Shown here in pieces: positions 2,373 to 43,684 of a stretch of 44,797 nucleotides of DNA. Position numbers and translations under genes: made by a program. The notes under the pieces were generated by a model. That model had not been told where the DNA came from, made no database searches, and saw only the letters and a program-made list of their open reading frames with translations. The stretch's first letter is position 1. Each line of letters opens with the position of its first letter. The stretch lies in contig JAKACV010000021.1 of NCBI GenBank assembly GCA_021821085.1, positions 1 to 44,797 of the forward strand, written 5' to 3'. The DNA is from Bacillota bacterium. GTDB lineage: Bacteria > Bacillota > Bacilli > Alicyclobacillales > SLC66.

Positions 2373-2582
2373 CTACTCAGGCCAGTCGTCCACTTCGGCT
2401 GGATCAAACCCGAGCATCCGAATTATGCTGGGATCCGTAGGGTCGTCTTCATGGGCCTCGTCATCGTCGTCCCAGTCCTCAATGCCGTGTACTGGGTGGT
2501 CACGCATCTCTTTAGCATAGTCGCGATTCTCCTCGACCACTCCGTAATGTACGTCGGGTAACTCATACTTAAACTTAGACAC
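2373..2582 (-). CDS. Small acidic protein of unknown function
   Basis: A 69-residue protein with a GTG start, beginning MSKFKYELPDVHYG and very rich in Asp and Glu in the second half (DWDDDDEAHEDD). A good ribosome binding site, GGGAGG, lies about 9 bases upstream of the GTG, and the start overlaps the last codons of the topoisomerase-like gene. This suggests translational coupling within one minus-strand unit that ends at the terminator near 2340. No family is recognised. Strong acidity in a small element-encoded protein is compatible with DNA mimicry or with partner binding, but nothing in the sequence shows this. Confidence 0.55.
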   Translation of the reverse strand: MSKFKYELPDVHYGVVEENRDYAKEMRDHPVHGIEDWDDDDEAHEDDPTDPSIIRMLGFDPAEVDDWPE

Positions 2583-3174
2583 CTAAACCCGCCTCCCATT
2601 TTGCAAAGACATCGGGACTGATGTAGCTTTGGAGTGCTACAGTAGGTGTGTTGCCAAGTTTCTTGGACACAGCAACCCCGACCTTTTTCACGGCTTTATC
2701 AAACTCTGCCTTGGTTGCAGGCGGGGGAATTGACTCCACTGCCTCGTACGCCGTTCGCGTGGCTAGTAATGTCCTAAAATCTTTGGGCTTGATGTCCTCG
2801 GCCCCTACCTCGTGCGTGTACGTACGCAATATGCGTGCGTTTGTGGCAGGGAACAGTTTGCCGTCCGTGCCCGCCTTTTGAGCACATTCCTTAAGCATCG
2901 CGGCCACCTTGGGGTTTTCGACAGGGATGTCGAGCGATACGCCTTTTTTCCCAACGAATTGCAATCGGACTGCGCCGTCTCTCTCTATTTTAACATGTTT
3001 GCCCTCTAAAGTGGTGGCTCCGTAGGCCTTTATTTTGGCTTTTGTGTCGGTGTCACTCCCTGGGCGAATAGCCGTAGCCATGATTAGAGACAGGCACTTC
3101 GCACTATCTCTAATGCGCGGATTATCGACGCCATGTATCAAAGTGAATCCGCAAATTTCAGGCTTGCGAACCAT
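2575..3174 (-). CDS. DNA topoisomerase IB C-terminal catalytic domain, probably N-terminally truncated
   Basis: The 199 residues match the catalytic half of eukaryote/poxvirus-type topoisomerase IB as found in bacteria. IRPGSD fits the RxG motif with the first catalytic Arg, YGATTLEGKHVKI and QFVGKKGV fit the beta-sheet with the catalytic Lys, KDFRT carries the second catalytic Arg, and LGNTPTVALQSYISP carries the active-site Tyr. Such enzymes nick one strand through a 3'-phosphotyrosine link and relax supercoils. Family members have an N-terminal DNA-clamping domain that is absent here. The frame is open only to about 3207, and I see no ribosome binding site before the Met at 3174. It is therefore either a minimal element-borne enzyme with an unclear start, or the surviving end of a broken gene. 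Confidence 0.65.
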   Translation of the reverse strand: MVRKPEICGFTLIHGVDNPRIRDSAKCLSLIMATAIRPGSDTDTKAKIKAYGATTLEGKHVKIERDGAVRLQFVGKKGVSLDIPVENPKVAAMLKECAQKAGTDGKLFPATNARILRTYTHEVGAEDIKPKDFRTLLATRTAYEAVESIPPPATKAEFDKAVKKVGVAVSKKLGNTPTVALQSYISPDVFAKWEAGLGV

Positions 3175-3423
3175 GTACGTTTTGGCGATGGTGGAAAACA
3201 GGAACCCCTATCCCACTTGGTTAAGACTGAGAAGGCAACCCCCCCTTGACCGCTCACAAAACGAAGTGGGCGAAACGAAGCGAAACGGATGACTAAAAAA
3301 GCGGTCAATCAAACCAATCAATCAGAGACACTAAAAAGGGAATTTCTTAACGCAGTAAAAAAGGCCAACCGTGCCCCCGTACCGACGCAGAACGCACACC
3401 TAAAAAGGAGGCACACACACCCT

Positions 3424-3789
3424 ATGACCGCACGCGAACTCCTCGCAACACTTCCGAAGATTCGCAGCGTACCTATGCAGACCCTGACGACTCACCCTGA
3501 CAATGGCAAGCCCCGTAAGTCCTCTCACCGCTTGTACAACTTTCGTACAGGCGGCCAAAATGTCACCGTGGCTTATAGCGTACTGCACGGCTTCCTGACG
3601 AGTTTAGGCGACCGAAGTATACAAATGACTATCATCGACAAACAGGCTCTTTATATCGCAACCTCGCAAGCCTGTTTGATTCTGTACGACCTCGAAACCT
3701 CGCATGATGAAAGAGGGTATGAGGATGCAGACAAATGGGTCATATCGCTTGCCAAAACACAGGGGCCGTTCGCTATACGTGCCCCCTAA
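3424..3789 (+). CDS. Hypothetical protein of the accessory element
   Basis: A 121-residue frame starting MTARELLATLPKIRSV. I chose the ATG at 3424 because AAAGGAGG lies 12 bases upstream. The same frame is open from an ATG at 3289, which would add 45 basic residues but has no clear ribosome binding site. The protein contains RLYNFRTGGQNVTVAYSVLHGFL and a plausible beta-rich middle; no family is recognised. It is transcribed away from the topoisomerase-like gene, with no gene beside it on its own strand. It may be a small element-specific gene. The existence call rests only on the ribosome binding site and an uninterrupted frame. Confidence 0.4.
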   Translation: MTARELLATLPKIRSVPMQTLTTHPDNGKPRKSSHRLYNFRTGGQNVTVAYSVLHGFLTSLGDRSIQMTIIDKQALYIATSQACLILYDLETSHDERGYEDADKWVISLAKTQGPFAIRAP

Positions 3790-4066: not shown

Positions 4067-5371
4067 TTACTGAGCATATATAGATACATCCCCCATGATT
4101 GCTTTTTCAATCTCTCGTTTAGTCTTCTCGATCGTGTCCTTCGCCAACCTAATTCTCATTAATGCTATCTTTCGAACTTCTGCAACTGACCTCTGCTCTT
4201 CGTCGGAGATAACAGGAATCGGGATTTGTAATAAATTTTCTACATAAAGCCTTTGTTTTACAGCACCTACTCTATGGAATTGAATCAAACTGATGAAAAA
4301 AGGAGTCGTAATTAGCGCAGCAACGTACTCTGGCGTTAATCCCTGCTTAATTCTCCACACCTGGTACTCAGGGCTTGTGATAGCGTCCTCCATTACATCC
4401 TCTGGAACCATCCCTAATGAACCAACTGATGACCTAGTTGGATTATGGAAAAACCATTCCTTTCTAATAATTTTATAGGAAGCGTTGAAGTCCTTGCCCT
4501 TCTGATAATGACTAAAGAAGACACCATTAATGTTGTTTACCCCGTAAACAGGCCACTCTTTGTCAGGACTTTCCCATGGTTTCACCATCTCCGTCGCTTC
4601 TTCCACGAACTCTCCCATCGGGCGGAATGCAGGATTATTGTTGCGGAAAATTGTCGCCCTCGCAGTCTTTAAGTCCCATCTCGTAAGATCAGTTAGTTTC
4701 AGCGCAAAAGAATGACGTTTTAGGATTTCGTGGTTCTCAGCATGACTGCCTTGAGAATCGCGAAGAATCTTGTTAAGTTCCTTTGAGACATTTGCTAACG
4801 TTAACAGAGCAGAATGCAACTCCCCCTGCGCATCCTCCCACTTCTGTACAATGGCCCGCTGGATATCGAGTGGAGGGAGTGGAATTTCTATAGACTCAAA
4901 GAAATCTAGTTTAACCTCCTTCCTTCCCTCTGCGCCAACCTTGTTACGATTCAGGTAAGCCTTGAAAAAGTTCACCTGAACAATGATACAAAGATACTCT
5001 GGAACAATCGACGTTTCATCAGGCTCATAAACAGCAAAGTGGTTTGTAACTGCCACATTGCACCAATCGTCTGGAATTACACTAACGGCACCATTTTTCA
5101 AATCAATCTTAGCGACAACAATGTCACGTGGACGCGCCCAGTACATATCCATCGTATATTGACGCGAAGATTCGATTTTCCTTTCGGAAACTGATCCATC
5201 AAAATGTATCGTAATAGGACGTAATGCCGAAAACGGCATTACTTTTGGATCAACCTTTTCCTTGCGTAATCGTAGAACAGAGCCGATACTTGCCATGACT
5301 GATTCGGGCCAGTTCCATGCAATACCCTCATAACTTGCCGGGTCCCATCGAGACATCCGTGAAAATTGCAC
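4067..5371 (-). CDS. Restriction-modification specificity subunit (HsdS-like)
   Basis: A 434-residue protein with the two-repeat design of type I S subunits. A first target-recognition region covers about residues 1-180 and ends in PLPPLDIQRAIVQKW, followed by a helical spacer. A second region covers about 220-400 and ends in IPIPVISDEEQRSVAEVR with a C-terminal helix. The conserved PLPPLxxQ-type turn marks the junction of each recognition domain with its helix. S subunits read a bipartite DNA site and direct the partner methylase or nuclease to it. I take the GTG at 5371 as start; AGAGGGG lies upstream. It begins about 40 bases after the stop of the methylase gene, so the two are an operon. 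No restriction motor subunit follows. Confidence 0.88.
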   Translation of the reverse strand: MQFSRMSRWDPASYEGIAWNWPESVMASIGSVLRLRKEKVDPKVMPFSALRPITIHFDGSVSERKIESSRQYTMDMYWARPRDIVVAKIDLKNGAVSVIPDDWCNVAVTNHFAVYEPDETSIVPEYLCIIVQVNFFKAYLNRNKVGAEGRKEVKLDFFESIEIPLPPLDIQRAIVQKWEDAQGELHSALLTLANVSKELNKILRDSQGSHAENHEILKRHSFALKLTDLTRWDLKTARATIFRNNNPAFRPMGEFVEEATEMVKPWESPDKEWPVYGVNNINGVFFSHYQKGKDFNASYKIIRKEWFFHNPTRSSVGSLGMVPEDVMEDAITSPEYQVWRIKQGLTPEYVAALITTPFFISLIQFHRVGAVKQRLYVENLLQIPIPVISDEEQRSVAEVRKIALMRIRLAKDTIEKTKREIEKAIMGDVSIYAQ

Positions 5372-5409
5372 TGCAAAGCCCCTCTTGGCGTGTAACTCAC
5401 CCGAGGGGC

Positions 5410-7614
5410 CTAGACGAAAAAAGGTGTGGGGTCTATCTCAAACTCACGGTATAGCTCCAATGCCGTCGTATCTACTTCAGCAGGTACGCGCGGATTAGGA
5501 TACAATTCGTTATCATCTGCCTCAGCCGTAGCCGTGATGCCGACTTTCTCCGCTTCATACATGAAGACAGGATAATCAAACCCTCGTTTAAGCAACCCTC
5601 TGGCTTCCGCGCGAATTCGCTCACCCATTTGTTTCTCATAGGATGTCAGTTCCTTTTGTGCAGCCTTTCTGCCTTCTGTATCGCGGCCCATCTTCGCATT
5701 AGCAATGACCGACTCCAAACGTTCGCGTTCAGCCGCCATTTCGTTAGCATACATTGCTTCCGCCTCTGCTTGTGCGCTCACTTTCTTGGTGTCAAAATCC
5801 GTCCGCTCCTGATCATCAAACTTGCGCAGGAATAGAAGAGACGCCTTCACAGATGCCCCGCTGGACATGAACGTTTCTTGCGGCAGACTAACAACGGCAA
5901 GGATCTTAGCCCGATCCTCCGCGAACTCGCGCACATAGGCCAAGGACGGGTTATTGAATATGCCCTCCGGCAATACAATCCCGAGACGACCGCCGGGTTT
6001 TAGTAGATCAAGGCAACGCTCAATAAATAAAATTTCTGTCTTAACCTTGGAGATGGTCTTCCCCTTCTCCTTCTTCGGCAACTGAAACAGGGACGCAATA
6101 GGTTGCCCCTTAGCCGCATTCACTCTTGCACGTGCGTCTTTGTACTGCTCACCATAGCGCTCCTCGTACAGTCGTTCAACATCGGACGACATGCTTAGTT
6201 CCGATTCTAGAATTACGTCTGATGGCTCCACGTTGGAACCAAATGGCGGATTCGTTAGGATGATGTCGAATCGACCTTCAAAGATCCCATTCACGTTGAG
6301 AAAACCATTGTGATGATGGACACCGCCATGCCCGTCTCCGTGCATAATCATATTCATCTTAGACGTGCGCGCCATGCGATCATTCGCATCTGTTCCGTAG
6401 ATGCACCGATTCGATAAAGCCCACATCCGAGAACCTTCTATGGATGGGTCAAGGGTCTTTTGAATCTCCTCAAACTTCTCAGAGAGTAAACGCGCGCGGT
6501 CTGCGTCCGACAGACTACCATCCGCCTCGAATCGTATCTTGTGGGCCTGATACTCTTGGTCTGCATCCGCCATAATCTGCTGGCGAACCAGTTCAAATAA
6601 CCGAATGAGAAAACCGCCTGAACCACTGGCCGGATCACAGACGATTTCGCCTTCCTTGGGATTCACCATGCGCACCATGAATTCCACGATGGGACGCGGC
6701 GTGAAAAACTGACCAATTTCCCCCCGGAACGTCCGACCTAAGAAACGTTCAAACGCGATACCCTTGATATCCTCCGATGTGTCAGACAAATTGTAACGCT
6801 CAAGTTCCTTCACAATGGCGATCACGGTTGCGTATTTCAGATTAATTTTTTCATCACTCTGGAAGATAAGATCCGCTCGATAATCCATTTTTGTTTCCCT
6901 GAACAGAGTATCAACCGGATCATTGTACAGTGCCTTTTGCTCCTCAACAAACTCTGTAGTGAACAGGTTCTTTCGAATGTTACCTAGACGCAAGCGCCGC
7001 TCCATTCCGGTTTTCACGAACAGAATCTTAGCAATTTCATCGAAGGCAGCCGCCGGGTCTAGGTGTTCCCGATTGCGGATGATGTCATGACACCGCCCCA
7101 GCAAATCCGCAAACTCATCCTCTTTGAATATCTTCAGGCGAGCCATGAGCGCCTCAATTTTCTTTTCACTTGCGCCTGCATGTGGGATGTTTTCTATCTC
7201 ATCATAATTGGGAGCCATGCGTTCATGATCCACTTTGAAATACTTGGTCTCTCGATTGTTATGAGTGACGAAGAAGGGCGCACCCGTGTACTGTGCATAG
7301 TTCGAACCCTGCGTGTATGTATTCTGGTCAATTGTTACATTATCGGCCTTGCACTCGACCACGATCAACGGTTTTAATCTGTTTGTCCGATCCTGCACAG
7401 TCCGCCATATGAGGAAATCCGCTCTTGCGTTGCTAGATCCACGCTCCGCGACCGCTTTTTCCTCTGCAATCTGCTCTAGCGCGTACCCGTACTCATTGAC
7501 CAGAACGCACAAATGCTCTTGCCTAACACGCTCCTCCGGCGTCTCATGTAACCACATCTTTCGAACCTGACTCCAGATTCGACCTTTGCCGTCGCGCTTC
7601 AGTTCTATAGTCAT
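5410..7614 (-). CDS. Fused restriction nuclease-adenine methylase subunit (HSDR_N domain plus HsdM-like)
   Basis: A 734-residue two-domain protein. Residues 20-130 resemble the N-terminal nuclease domain of type I R subunits: D66 in ARADFLIW, E87-C-K89 in VVECKAD, and Q102-G-S-N-Y106 fit the D-ExK plus QxxxY signature of an active PD-(D/E)XK nuclease. Residues 180-620 are an N6-adenine methylase of the HsdM type: GQFFTPR (301-307), the AdoMet loop DPASGSGG (327-334) and the catalytic NPPF (455-458). No SF2 translocase domain is present. With the HsdS-like partner this resembles type IIB/IIG enzymes such as BcgI, where one chain both cuts and methylates. It may instead act like a type I enzyme using a motor encoded elsewhere. 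The ATG at 7614 is the first start in the frame. Confidence 0.85.
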   Translation of the reverse strand: MTIELKRDGKGRIWSQVRKMWLHETPEERVRQEHLCVLVNEYGYALEQIAEEKAVAERGSSNARADFLIWRTVQDRTNRLKPLIVVECKADNVTIDQNTYTQGSNYAQYTGAPFFVTHNNRETKYFKVDHERMAPNYDEIENIPHAGASEKKIEALMARLKIFKEDEFADLLGRCHDIIRNREHLDPAAAFDEIAKILFVKTGMERRLRLGNIRKNLFTTEFVEEQKALYNDPVDTLFRETKMDYRADLIFQSDEKINLKYATVIAIVKELERYNLSDTSEDIKGIAFERFLGRTFRGEIGQFFTPRPIVEFMVRMVNPKEGEIVCDPASGSGGFLIRLFELVRQQIMADADQEYQAHKIRFEADGSLSDADRARLLSEKFEEIQKTLDPSIEGSRMWALSNRCIYGTDANDRMARTSKMNMIMHGDGHGGVHHHNGFLNVNGIFEGRFDIILTNPPFGSNVEPSDVILESELSMSSDVERLYEERYGEQYKDARARVNAAKGQPIASLFQLPKKEKGKTISKVKTEILFIERCLDLLKPGGRLGIVLPEGIFNNPSLAYVREFAEDRAKILAVVSLPQETFMSSGASVKASLLFLRKFDDQERTDFDTKKVSAQAEAEAMYANEMAAERERLESVIANAKMGRDTEGRKAAQKELTSYEKQMGERIRAEARGLLKRGFDYPVFMYEAEKVGITATAEADDNELYPNPRVPAEVDTTALELYREFEIDPTPFFV

Positions 7615-7952
7615 TGAAAGTATCCCACCCGACGAATTCTATTGAGCCTAAGGAGGCTACAAGAATACTAACATAGATTAGGGTTCGAAACTCGCCTATA
7701 GGCGCATTCGGAACACCGTGTTTCTCAAACGAATCAAAGTGGACAAAAGTGAGTCGAATCACCACGCTAAAAAGAGAGTTCCCCGACGCAGTATAAAAGG
7801 CCACGCGGTACATACATCCATCTGACCGAAAGAGCACACATTACGTTGCCCTATGAGGTCAGGAAAGCCCTTTGTCACCGCATTACTACTGCTTTACGTA
7901 CAGGCTCTGCCTGGTGCGCTCGCTTTCCCTGTCCAAGCCATACCCCCCCACC

Positions 7953-8142: not shown

Positions 8143-8439
8143 TGTCTGGCGCGCATCCGCAATGGAGTTATTTCTCGCACTACAGGCAGAACGGAACCGC
8201 AGTCCGCTACTCGTCAGTAACTGTCGGTACTCGTGTCAGTGTATTTATCGTATAGCCACCGTACTGCGCGGGACGTGGGTTAAACACTTCTTGTCAATGC
8301 TTGTCATAACTGTCAGTAGGAATGAGCGTAGGAAACTCAGACTTTGCCACTGTTAGTCGTAGTATTGTGCGACTACCTCCTGCTTATACAGCAGAGGGGC
8401 ATGCATTTAGCCTTGATATATCAACGTTTTTAAGTATAT

Positions 8440-8458
8440 GGTCTAGTCTTGGTCTAGT
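8440..8458 (+). repeat. Putative integrase arm sites, left pair
   Basis: Two direct copies of GGTCTAGT lie at 8440-8447 and 8451-8458, an 11-base step that puts them on the same face of the helix. They sit just before the integrase gene and match, in inverted orientation, the repeats just after it. Confidence 0.6.
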
Positions 8459-8524
8459 ATTTATGCTACTATGACCACAGAAGACGACGTTACGTGTAAC
8501 CACACACAAAGGAGTGACCTGCTC

Positions 8525-9673
8525 ATGGCGACCATCGCGCACCGGGGGACAGACAGCGACGGCAAGGAAATCTGGCGAATCCGTGTCTTTGTCGACGGCA
8601 AGCAAAAGAGCATTACCTACCACGGCAGTGAGCGCGGCGCACAGCGAACGGCGGCAGCTGCAGAGAACCGGCGAGAACAAGGGGAAACGGTCACGCCTAC
8701 AAAGATGAAGGTGGGCGACTACCTGAGCGAGTGGCTGGAGACGTATCAGAAACATGAAGTGGCCAAGATCACCTATGCGGAAGACACGGGGCGACTGCGC
8801 AGGCACATCCTGCCGGAGATCGGAGAAAAACGCATGGCAACGCTCACAACGATGGATTGCCAGCGCACCGTGAACCGTCTGACCCAGCAAGGCAAGGCGC
8901 GCTCCGCCGTGATGGTGTTTAACTTGCTCAAGAAGTCATTACGCAAAGCGGTCGAACTCGGATACTTGGTCAAGAATCCGATGGATGCGGTAACGAAACC
9001 GAAAGATCGCGCACAAGAACGTCCAGCGCTCACCGACGAACAGGCGACCGCGTTCCTGGAGGCAGCCAAAGAGGACACGCTGTACTCATTCTTTGCATTT
9101 CTACTGCATACAGGTGCACGCCCAGAAGAAGCGCAAGGGCTGCGCTGGATCGACGTAGACTTTGAAAAGCGTGTGATTTGTTTTCGCAGGGCTATGAAAC
9201 GTCTGCCTGGCGGTGGGTGGGAATTCGCGGAGATGAAAACGACCTCAAGCGTCAACGACTTCCCGATGAACGAAGAACTCATAGGCATCTTGAGAGCGCA
9301 CAAGAAAGAGCAGGCCCGTTTACGTCTGGCAATGGGGACGGACTGGGCAGACAACGGACTGGCATTCACCAATCAGGCAGGCAATCCGGTGGATGTCAGC
9401 AAGGCACGCAAACATTTGAAAGCCATTTTGACATCCTCGAGACTTCCCACGATCCGGCTGTATGATCTGCGACATACGTTTGGTTCGACCACACTGCAAG
9501 ATGGGACGGACATTAAGACGGTCAGCCGGTTGATGCGCCATGCGAGTATCACAACGACGGCCCGTTACATGCACGGCAACGCAGAGACAGACCGTGCAGC
9601 CGTGGAGCGTCGTGGCAAAAGGCTGAAGCGGGACGGTGACGCGAGAAATGATCACAATGCGACAGGTGAATAG
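8525..9673 (+). CDS. Tyrosine recombinase (phage-type integrase)
   Basis: A 382-residue site-specific recombinase. The N-terminal about 55 residues (WRIRVFVDGKQKSITYHGS) look like the arm-site-binding domain of Tn916/phage integrases. Next comes a SAM-like core-binding domain (about 60-150), then the catalytic domain. Catalytic residues are visible: Arg in TGARPEEAQGLRW, YDLRHTF (the box II HxxR motif, with Tyr in place of the first His), His in LMRHASITTTARYMH, and the nucleophilic Tyr in that last motif. I chose the ATG at 8525 because AAAGGAG lies 10 bases upstream; the frame is open from 8471. The gene lies between paired GGTCTAGT repeats and ends 125 bases from the 3' end of tRNA-Ala, its likely target. 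It would catalyse integration and excision of the left-hand element. Confidence 0.93.
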   Translation: MATIAHRGTDSDGKEIWRIRVFVDGKQKSITYHGSERGAQRTAAAAENRREQGETVTPTKMKVGDYLSEWLETYQKHEVAKITYAEDTGRLRRHILPEIGEKRMATLTTMDCQRTVNRLTQQGKARSAVMVFNLLKKSLRKAVELGYLVKNPMDAVTKPKDRAQERPALTDEQATAFLEAAKEDTLYSFFAFLLHTGARPEEAQGLRWIDVDFEKRVICFRRAMKRLPGGGWEFAEMKTTSSVNDFPMNEELIGILRAHKKEQARLRLAMGTDWADNGLAFTNQAGNPVDVSKARKHLKAILTSSRLPTIRLYDLRHTFGSTTLQDGTDIKTVSRLMRHASITTTARYMHGNAETDRAAVERRGKRLKRDGDARNDHNATGE

Positions 9674-9688
9674 CGGCTCAGGTGTTCA

Positions 9689-9727
9689 GTAGACCGGGAT
9701 GGGATAGACTAGACCGAAAACTAGACC
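9689..9727 (-). repeat. Putative integrase arm sites, right set
   Basis: ACTAGACC lies at 9708-9715 and 9720-9727, with a one-mismatch copy AGTAGACC at 9689-9696. These are the reverse complement of the GGTCTAGT pair on the other side of the integrase gene, so the two sets face each other across it. Confidence 0.6.
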
Positions 9728-9734
9728 ACAACGC

Positions 9735-9773
9735 AAATCGGATGGCAGCCATTTACAGGCGACCATCCGATTT
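9735..9773. repeat. 11-bp perfect inverted repeat after the integrase
   Basis: AAATCGGATGG at 9735-9745 and its exact reverse complement at 9763-9773 can form a stem with a 17-base loop. It follows the integrase and precedes tRNA-Ala, so it may act as a bidirectional terminator, although the T-run is only three bases. Confidence 0.6.
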
Positions 9774-9797
9774 CCCTTGCTGCATAAGGCTTTTTCA

Positions 9798-9873
9798 TGG
9801 TGGAGATATGCGGATTCGAACCGCAGACCCCCTGCGTGCAAGGCAGGTGCTCTACCAGCTGAGCTATATCCCC
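9798..9873 (-). tRNA. tRNA-Ala (anticodon TGC)
   Basis: Read on the minus strand, GGGGATA pairs with TATCTCC as the acceptor stem. The D arm has AGCTCAGCTGGTAGAGC, the anticodon arm is CCTGC-CTTGCAC-GCAGG with anticodon TGC, the T loop is GTTCGAATC, and CCA is encoded at 9798-9800. The 3' end faces the integrase gene and is the likely attachment site of the element. Confidence 0.97.
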
Positions 9874-43587: not shown

Positions 43588-43684
43588 GGGAGCGGATGGG
43601 GTACTGGTGTCCTTCCCGGTCTTCAAAACCGAGTGTCCGGCATGGTGTGTCGGAGGTGGGTTCGATTCCCACACGCTCCCGCCA
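43588..43684 (+). tRNA. selC: tRNA-Sec (selenocysteine, anticodon TCA)
   Basis: A 97-base tRNA. The acceptor GGGAGCG pairs with CGCTCCC and is followed by the discriminator G and an encoded CCA. The anticodon loop is CTTCAAA with anticodon TCA (reads UGA). A long variable arm, TCCGGCA pairing with TGTCGGA, and the T arm GTGGG-TTCGATT-CCCAC complete the selenocysteine tRNA plan. The eighth acceptor pair is a G-A mismatch by my fold. With selA in the same window this supports a working selenocysteine pathway. Confidence 0.95.

Follow-up and report, generated by a model that had tools for sequence, protein, structure and literature searches.

Gene content of the locus

We analysed a window of 44,797 nt (the whole stretch of DNA considered here) in which two adjacent minus-strand genes encode a fusion of nuclease and methylase, hereafter the restriction-modification (RM) chain, and a separate specificity (S) subunit (Table 1). 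The RM chain occupies an open reading frame that an earlier note on this DNA had placed at the same position, and the S gene, which begins with a GTG start, follows it after 38 nt. Pfam matches to HSDR_N_2 at residues 26-144 (1.1e-23) and to N6_Mtase (3.7e-33) in the RM chain, and to Methylase_S in the second product, agree with that note's description of a two-gene RM module with the nuclease fused to the methylase. The family of the RM chain is already represented in PADLOC, where model PDLC03018 (749 positions) matched residues 10-706 at 745 bits; its label, type I methyltransferase, omits the fused nuclease. The gene after S in the window is convergent and had no family match in the Pfam and PADLOC scan.

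Table 1. Features of the RM-S locus and the neighbouring integrase site, in window coordinates.
Feature	Position	Strand	Description
S subunit, 434 aa	4067..5371	-	two target-recognition domains (TRDs), conserved region (CR) after each
S second half, TRD2-CR2, residues 215-434	4070..4729	-	44-65% identical in about 20 relatives, 13-20% in the rest
S first half, TRD1-CR1, residues 1-214	4730..5371	-	49-61% identical in seven relatives, 14-35% in the rest
RM chain, 734 aa	5410..7614	-	nuclease, helical connector, N6-adenine methylase, helical hairpin, C-terminal segment (N to C)
Antiparallel helical hairpin, RM residues 601-678	5581..5814	-	from model secondary structure; site of the BsaXI 'knob'
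Catalytic motif IV, NPPF (455-458)	6241..6252	-	methylase motif
AdoMet-binding motif I, DPASGSGG (327-334)	6613..6636	-	methylase motif
PD-(D/E)XK nuclease domain, RM residues 24-145	7180..7545	-	modelled alone; structural match to BsaXI
Q102xxxY106 motif	7297..7311	-	Q kept in 80/80 relatives, Y in 79/80
E87-x-K89, predicted catalytic motif	7348..7356	-	BsaXI E105/K107; each kept in 80/80 relatives
D66, predicted catalytic	7417..7419	-	BsaXI D90; kept in 80/80 relatives
E52, predicted catalytic	7459..7461	-	BsaXI E73; kept in 79/80 relatives
Tyrosine integrase	8471..9673	+	Pfam Phage_integrase; abuts the tRNA-Ala 3' end
tRNA-Ala	9798..9873	-	probable attachment site of the element

Genomic context

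The integrase protein has a 96% identical counterpart next to a tRNA-Pro gene of another genus, and the integrase region (8225-9866) shares 93% DNA identity across genera with locus L123, where the adjoining gene is tRNA-Pro instead of tRNA-Ala. A congeneric genome has the same order of tRNA-Ala, tRNA-Ile and desulfurase genes; to the left of these it carries different genes and lacks an integrase. In G008 and G013 the RM pair lies beside tRNA-Thr. Carriage of the pair by a mobile element, as proposed in the earlier note, is likely given the integrase at tRNA-Ala and the integrase-free congeneric site, although the left end of the element lies off the contig and no second att copy turned up in searches.

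Several other features were recorded in the window. The stretch that separates phage-like genes from the RM pair holds a 199-aa open reading frame (2575-3174, minus strand) that is apparently N-terminally incomplete and matched the catalytic core of eukaryotic-type topoisomerase IB (1.7e-19). A 40-nt direct repeat (80%, E 5e-6) is present on both sides of the RM-S pair (3328-3367 and 7764-7803), its left copy inside an open reading frame at 3289-3789, and is too short to call. A tRNA-Sec gene lies at 43588-43684.

Distribution of relatives

When 84,980 species genomes were scanned with a pattern, 407 relatives of the RM chain came up; the 80 that we fetched and compared were 46-82% identical to the window chain, in almost all cases over close to its full length. 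Relatives occur in Bacillota, Chloroflexota, Desulfobacterota, Acidobacteriota, Nitrospirota, Planctomycetota, Verrucomicrobiota, Bacteroidota, Campylobacterota and other phyla, while within the phylum of the window 4 of 299 sampled genomes carry one, the window's own included; the family is spread widely but thinly. In 66 of the 80, S is the gene directly 3' of RM, and more distant RM chains were found on plasmids, adjoining S and with no HsdR close by. In about 17 relatives, mostly from Desulfobacterota-like MAGs, the gene directly 5' of RM resembles RadC as read from its sequence (e.g., L015:2115-2897).

Nuclease domain

The D, ExK and QxxxY motifs described earlier for residues 66-106 were recovered as D66, E87-x-K89 and Q102xxxY106. 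In BsaXI, four of fourteen tested alanine mutants of the nuclease domain are inactive (E73A, D90A, E105A and K107A; PMC11997821), and a HMMER alignment with RM.BsaXI placed E52, D66, E87 and K89, respectively, opposite these essential residues, so that the nuclease residues of the window chain occupy PD-(D/E)XK positions. As judged from the alignment of 80 relatives, conservation of the nuclease motifs is far beyond chance. At none of the ten dispensable BsaXI positions is the BsaXI residue invariant in these relatives, and the split between essential and dispensable positions followed conservation (Fisher p about 0.001).

We also modelled the nuclease domain alone (pLDDT 94.4). Its best structural match was the BsaXI nuclease domain (Z 12.0, 144 residues, 3.1 Å), the next neighbours being the type IIG enzymes BpuSI (Z 9.8) and DrdV (8.8) and the HsdR of EcoR124I (7.6); by sequence, a profile of the domain matched BsaXI alone in the PDB, and weakly (E 0.023). 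The predicted fold is nearer BsaXI, BpuSI and DrdV than HsdR, which makes it type IIB/IIG-like and not type I-like, the Pfam name HSDR_N_2 notwithstanding. The alternative raised in the earlier note, a new variant with a type I-like nuclease domain, is therefore not favoured.

A rival reading of the RM chain, whose activity is predicted, is an orphan methylase that carries a dead nuclease domain. The four catalytic residues are nevertheless near-invariant across phyla, and in three close relatives, and between the window and two relatives at 82% identity, the nuclease was as constrained as the methylase (dN 0.04-0.09 in each); saturation of synonymous sites makes ratios of the dN/dS type unusable in the nuclease region. 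Because nuclease dN equals methylase dN, the nuclease domain does not appear to be decaying, and we regard the orphan reading as highly improbable.

Methylase domain and comparison with BsaXI

The FFTPR (at residue 303), DPASGSGG and NPPF motifs are all intact, in line with the N6-adenine methylase reported earlier, and the domain is complete and of the gamma class. In an AlphaFold2 model of the full RM chain (mean pLDDT 81.5), the methylase part matched many type I and orphan methylases, and of the PDB entries RM.BsaXI alone was seen to align along nuclease and methylase alike. The three BsaXI entries ranked first in Foldseek (E 1.6e-23), profile comparison with RM.BsaXI gave 146 bits, and VIA-align superposed residues 1-727 on BsaXI (Z 25.3, 598 residues) with an rmsd of 21.5 Å, which is large because the domains are differently placed.

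The type IIB system BsaXI (RM.BsaXI and S.BsaXI; PDB 8w0p, 8w2p and 8w2q) and the window pair have in common the RM fusion with a separate two-TRD S, the order of nuclease, helical connector, methylase and beta8 segment (DYPIF..EAE..VG), and the four nuclease residues essential for cleavage. The chains differ in that they are about 20-26% identical, that QxxxY is conserved in the window family and not in the same register in BsaXI, and that the 734-residue chain has neither the C-terminal paddle nor the knob of the BsaXI subgroup when its model is set against the published topology (PMC11997821). In place of the five-helix knob, the model has a two-helix hairpin, the only fast-evolving part of the chain (dN 0.20-0.32, compared with the values given above for nuclease and methylase). 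BsaXI also needs D816/E823 in its paddle (PMC11997821), which, like the 20-26% identity, speaks against a BsaXI-like enzyme.

Specificity subunit

Methylase_S and PADLOC Specificity_I matched each half of S, and the N half resembles the C half (E 6e-7), which bears out the two-domain HsdS of the earlier note. Identities to the first and second halves were 61/16% in L043, 31/65% in L040 and 56/56% in L029, and in L004 an RM chain 82% identical to that of the window accompanies an S of just 24/18%. By these values the two halves of S are swapped independently on a conserved RM chain, the pattern of a swappable specificity subunit.

One relative (L042:7992-10886) is a natural fusion of 964 aa, in which a single TRD, 54% identical to TRD2 of the window, is joined to the RM chain. 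This arrangement is like half of a bipartite enzyme and, together with BpuSI and DrdV as structural neighbours of the nuclease, would be compatible with a motor-less enzyme of type IIG-like geometry that makes a one-sided cut, or cuts only once two bound complexes meet. Type IIG enzymes have the recognition domain in the same chain, whereas in the window S has its own gene; the two TRDs of S and the BsaXI match over nuclease and methylase favour a symmetric (RM)2S complex, and we consider one-sided cutting unlikely.

Motor subunit

Neither an HsdR nor a helicase adjoins the RM-S pair, and the window encodes no HsdR. The source genome encodes a single HsdR, on contig C92, where it forms a separate hsdM-hsdS-hsdR set; this accords with the absence of a motor subunit proposed in the earlier note, for an element whose left end is off the contig. 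With this HsdR as the query, phmmer found no match in the loci of the 80 relatives, a search that other HsdR families could escape, and a motif scan saw no linked helicase near them. Two genomes, G258 (a one-contig chromosome, 99% complete) and G316 (98% complete), had no HsdR by PF04313, TIGR00348 or PF18766, profiles with which control genomes were positive, and both carry RM and S with intact nuclease residues. These two HsdR-free genomes are the decisive support for motor independence of the RM+S pair.

The presence of one HsdR in the genome and the PADLOC label would be expected if the RM chain were a type I methyltransferase that borrows the C92 HsdR. The C92 set is, however, complete by itself, its HsdM is 24% identical to the window chain over 203 residues, and relatives occur in genomes free of HsdR; we therefore rejected this reading as very unlikely.

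Third gene and resemblance to MADS

In 24 of the 80 relatives (e.g., L006:8946-10535), a conserved third gene of about 520 aa lies directly 3' of S, and the L042 fusion is directly followed by a gene of this kind; the window has none. The N-terminal part of its product is DndB/DpdB-like, with an RRIDGNHR motif, and its C-terminal part resembles TIR or nucleoside-deoxyribosyltransferase domains. Related RM+S pairs, MAD2 and MAD5, provide the multi-gene MADS system with its methylation module. Like the window pair, they combine a protein with an HSDR_N-type domain and an N6 methylase with an S subunit (NF047738 and NF047740). RM residues 22-609 matched the NCBIfam MAD2 model with 291 bits against a cut-off of 720, S matched MAD5 with 40 bits against 400, and no other MADS protein was matched among the neighbours scanned. 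With both matches far below the curated cut-offs, we did not assign the pair to MADS.

The MAD2 match and the third gene would also suit a module for methylation and self/non-self sensing, in which another gene is the effector and the nuclease domain is auxiliary. We find this quite unlikely: the MAD2 score falls short of its cut-off, the window and most relatives have no third gene, and the catalytic nuclease residues are invariant in relatives with or without it. Because of the resemblance to MAD2 and MAD5 and the third gene in these relatives, the pair may nevertheless act with partners in some hosts. More speculatively, the window could be the bare two-gene form of a phylum-spanning clade of motor-less RM+S systems, filed as type I methylases, in which roughly one locus in three has gained a DndB/DpdB-like protein with a fused TIR-like domain and the RM pair gives self/non-self discrimination to a second, abortive-type effector, a reading that we hold to be possible though doubtful.

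Discussion

The pair is probably a motor-independent type IIB enzyme of the BsaXI/BcgI kind that most likely cuts on both sides of its target. As in type IIB systems, nuclease and methylase share one chain and a two-TRD S is separate, the PD-(D/E)XK nuclease is intact by its residues and predicted fold, and no ATP-dependent motor subunit was found in the loci of the 80 relatives, in the two HsdR-free genomes or in the window, where the element is cut on the left. Together with the BsaXI match over both domains, this supports the BcgI-like reading of the earlier note. BcgI, CspCI and BaeI are type IIB enzymes with a 2RM:1S design (PMC3874165), and the window pair is likened to them by this design with a separate two-TRD S, not by sequence. 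Type I systems (EcoKI and EcoR124I HsdM/HsdS) resemble it in methylase fold and S organisation, but they have an HsdR with their M and S genes, whereas the window nuclease is fused to M and the locus has no HsdR motor.

On this type IIB reading, two RM chains would assemble on one S subunit as (RM)2S, an assembly that we infer because of the homology to BsaXI, and each of the two TRDs of S would recognise one half of an interrupted target. At hemimethylated host sites, the methylase domains would complete N6-adenine methylation, with an adenine in each half-site as the substrate and m6A as the predicted product. At unmodified, incoming sites, the N-terminal PD-(D/E)XK domains would cut at fixed distances outside the putative target, most likely on both sides and without ATP-driven translocation. 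The pair would thus be a compact two-gene set resembling BsaXI, presumably serving in defence against phages.

Three points are of wider interest: how large the clade is, that it is filed under type I methylases, and that some relatives have a third gene. Fusion of an HsdR nuclease domain to HsdM by Bower et al. gave methylation and no cutting (PMC6158711); judged by its sequences, the RM+S family looks like a natural, working answer to that engineering problem, and its natural TRD swaps could be parts for new specificities. With 407 relatives returned and the 80 fetched ones spread over many phyla, labels may greatly understate how common motor-less RM+S systems are.
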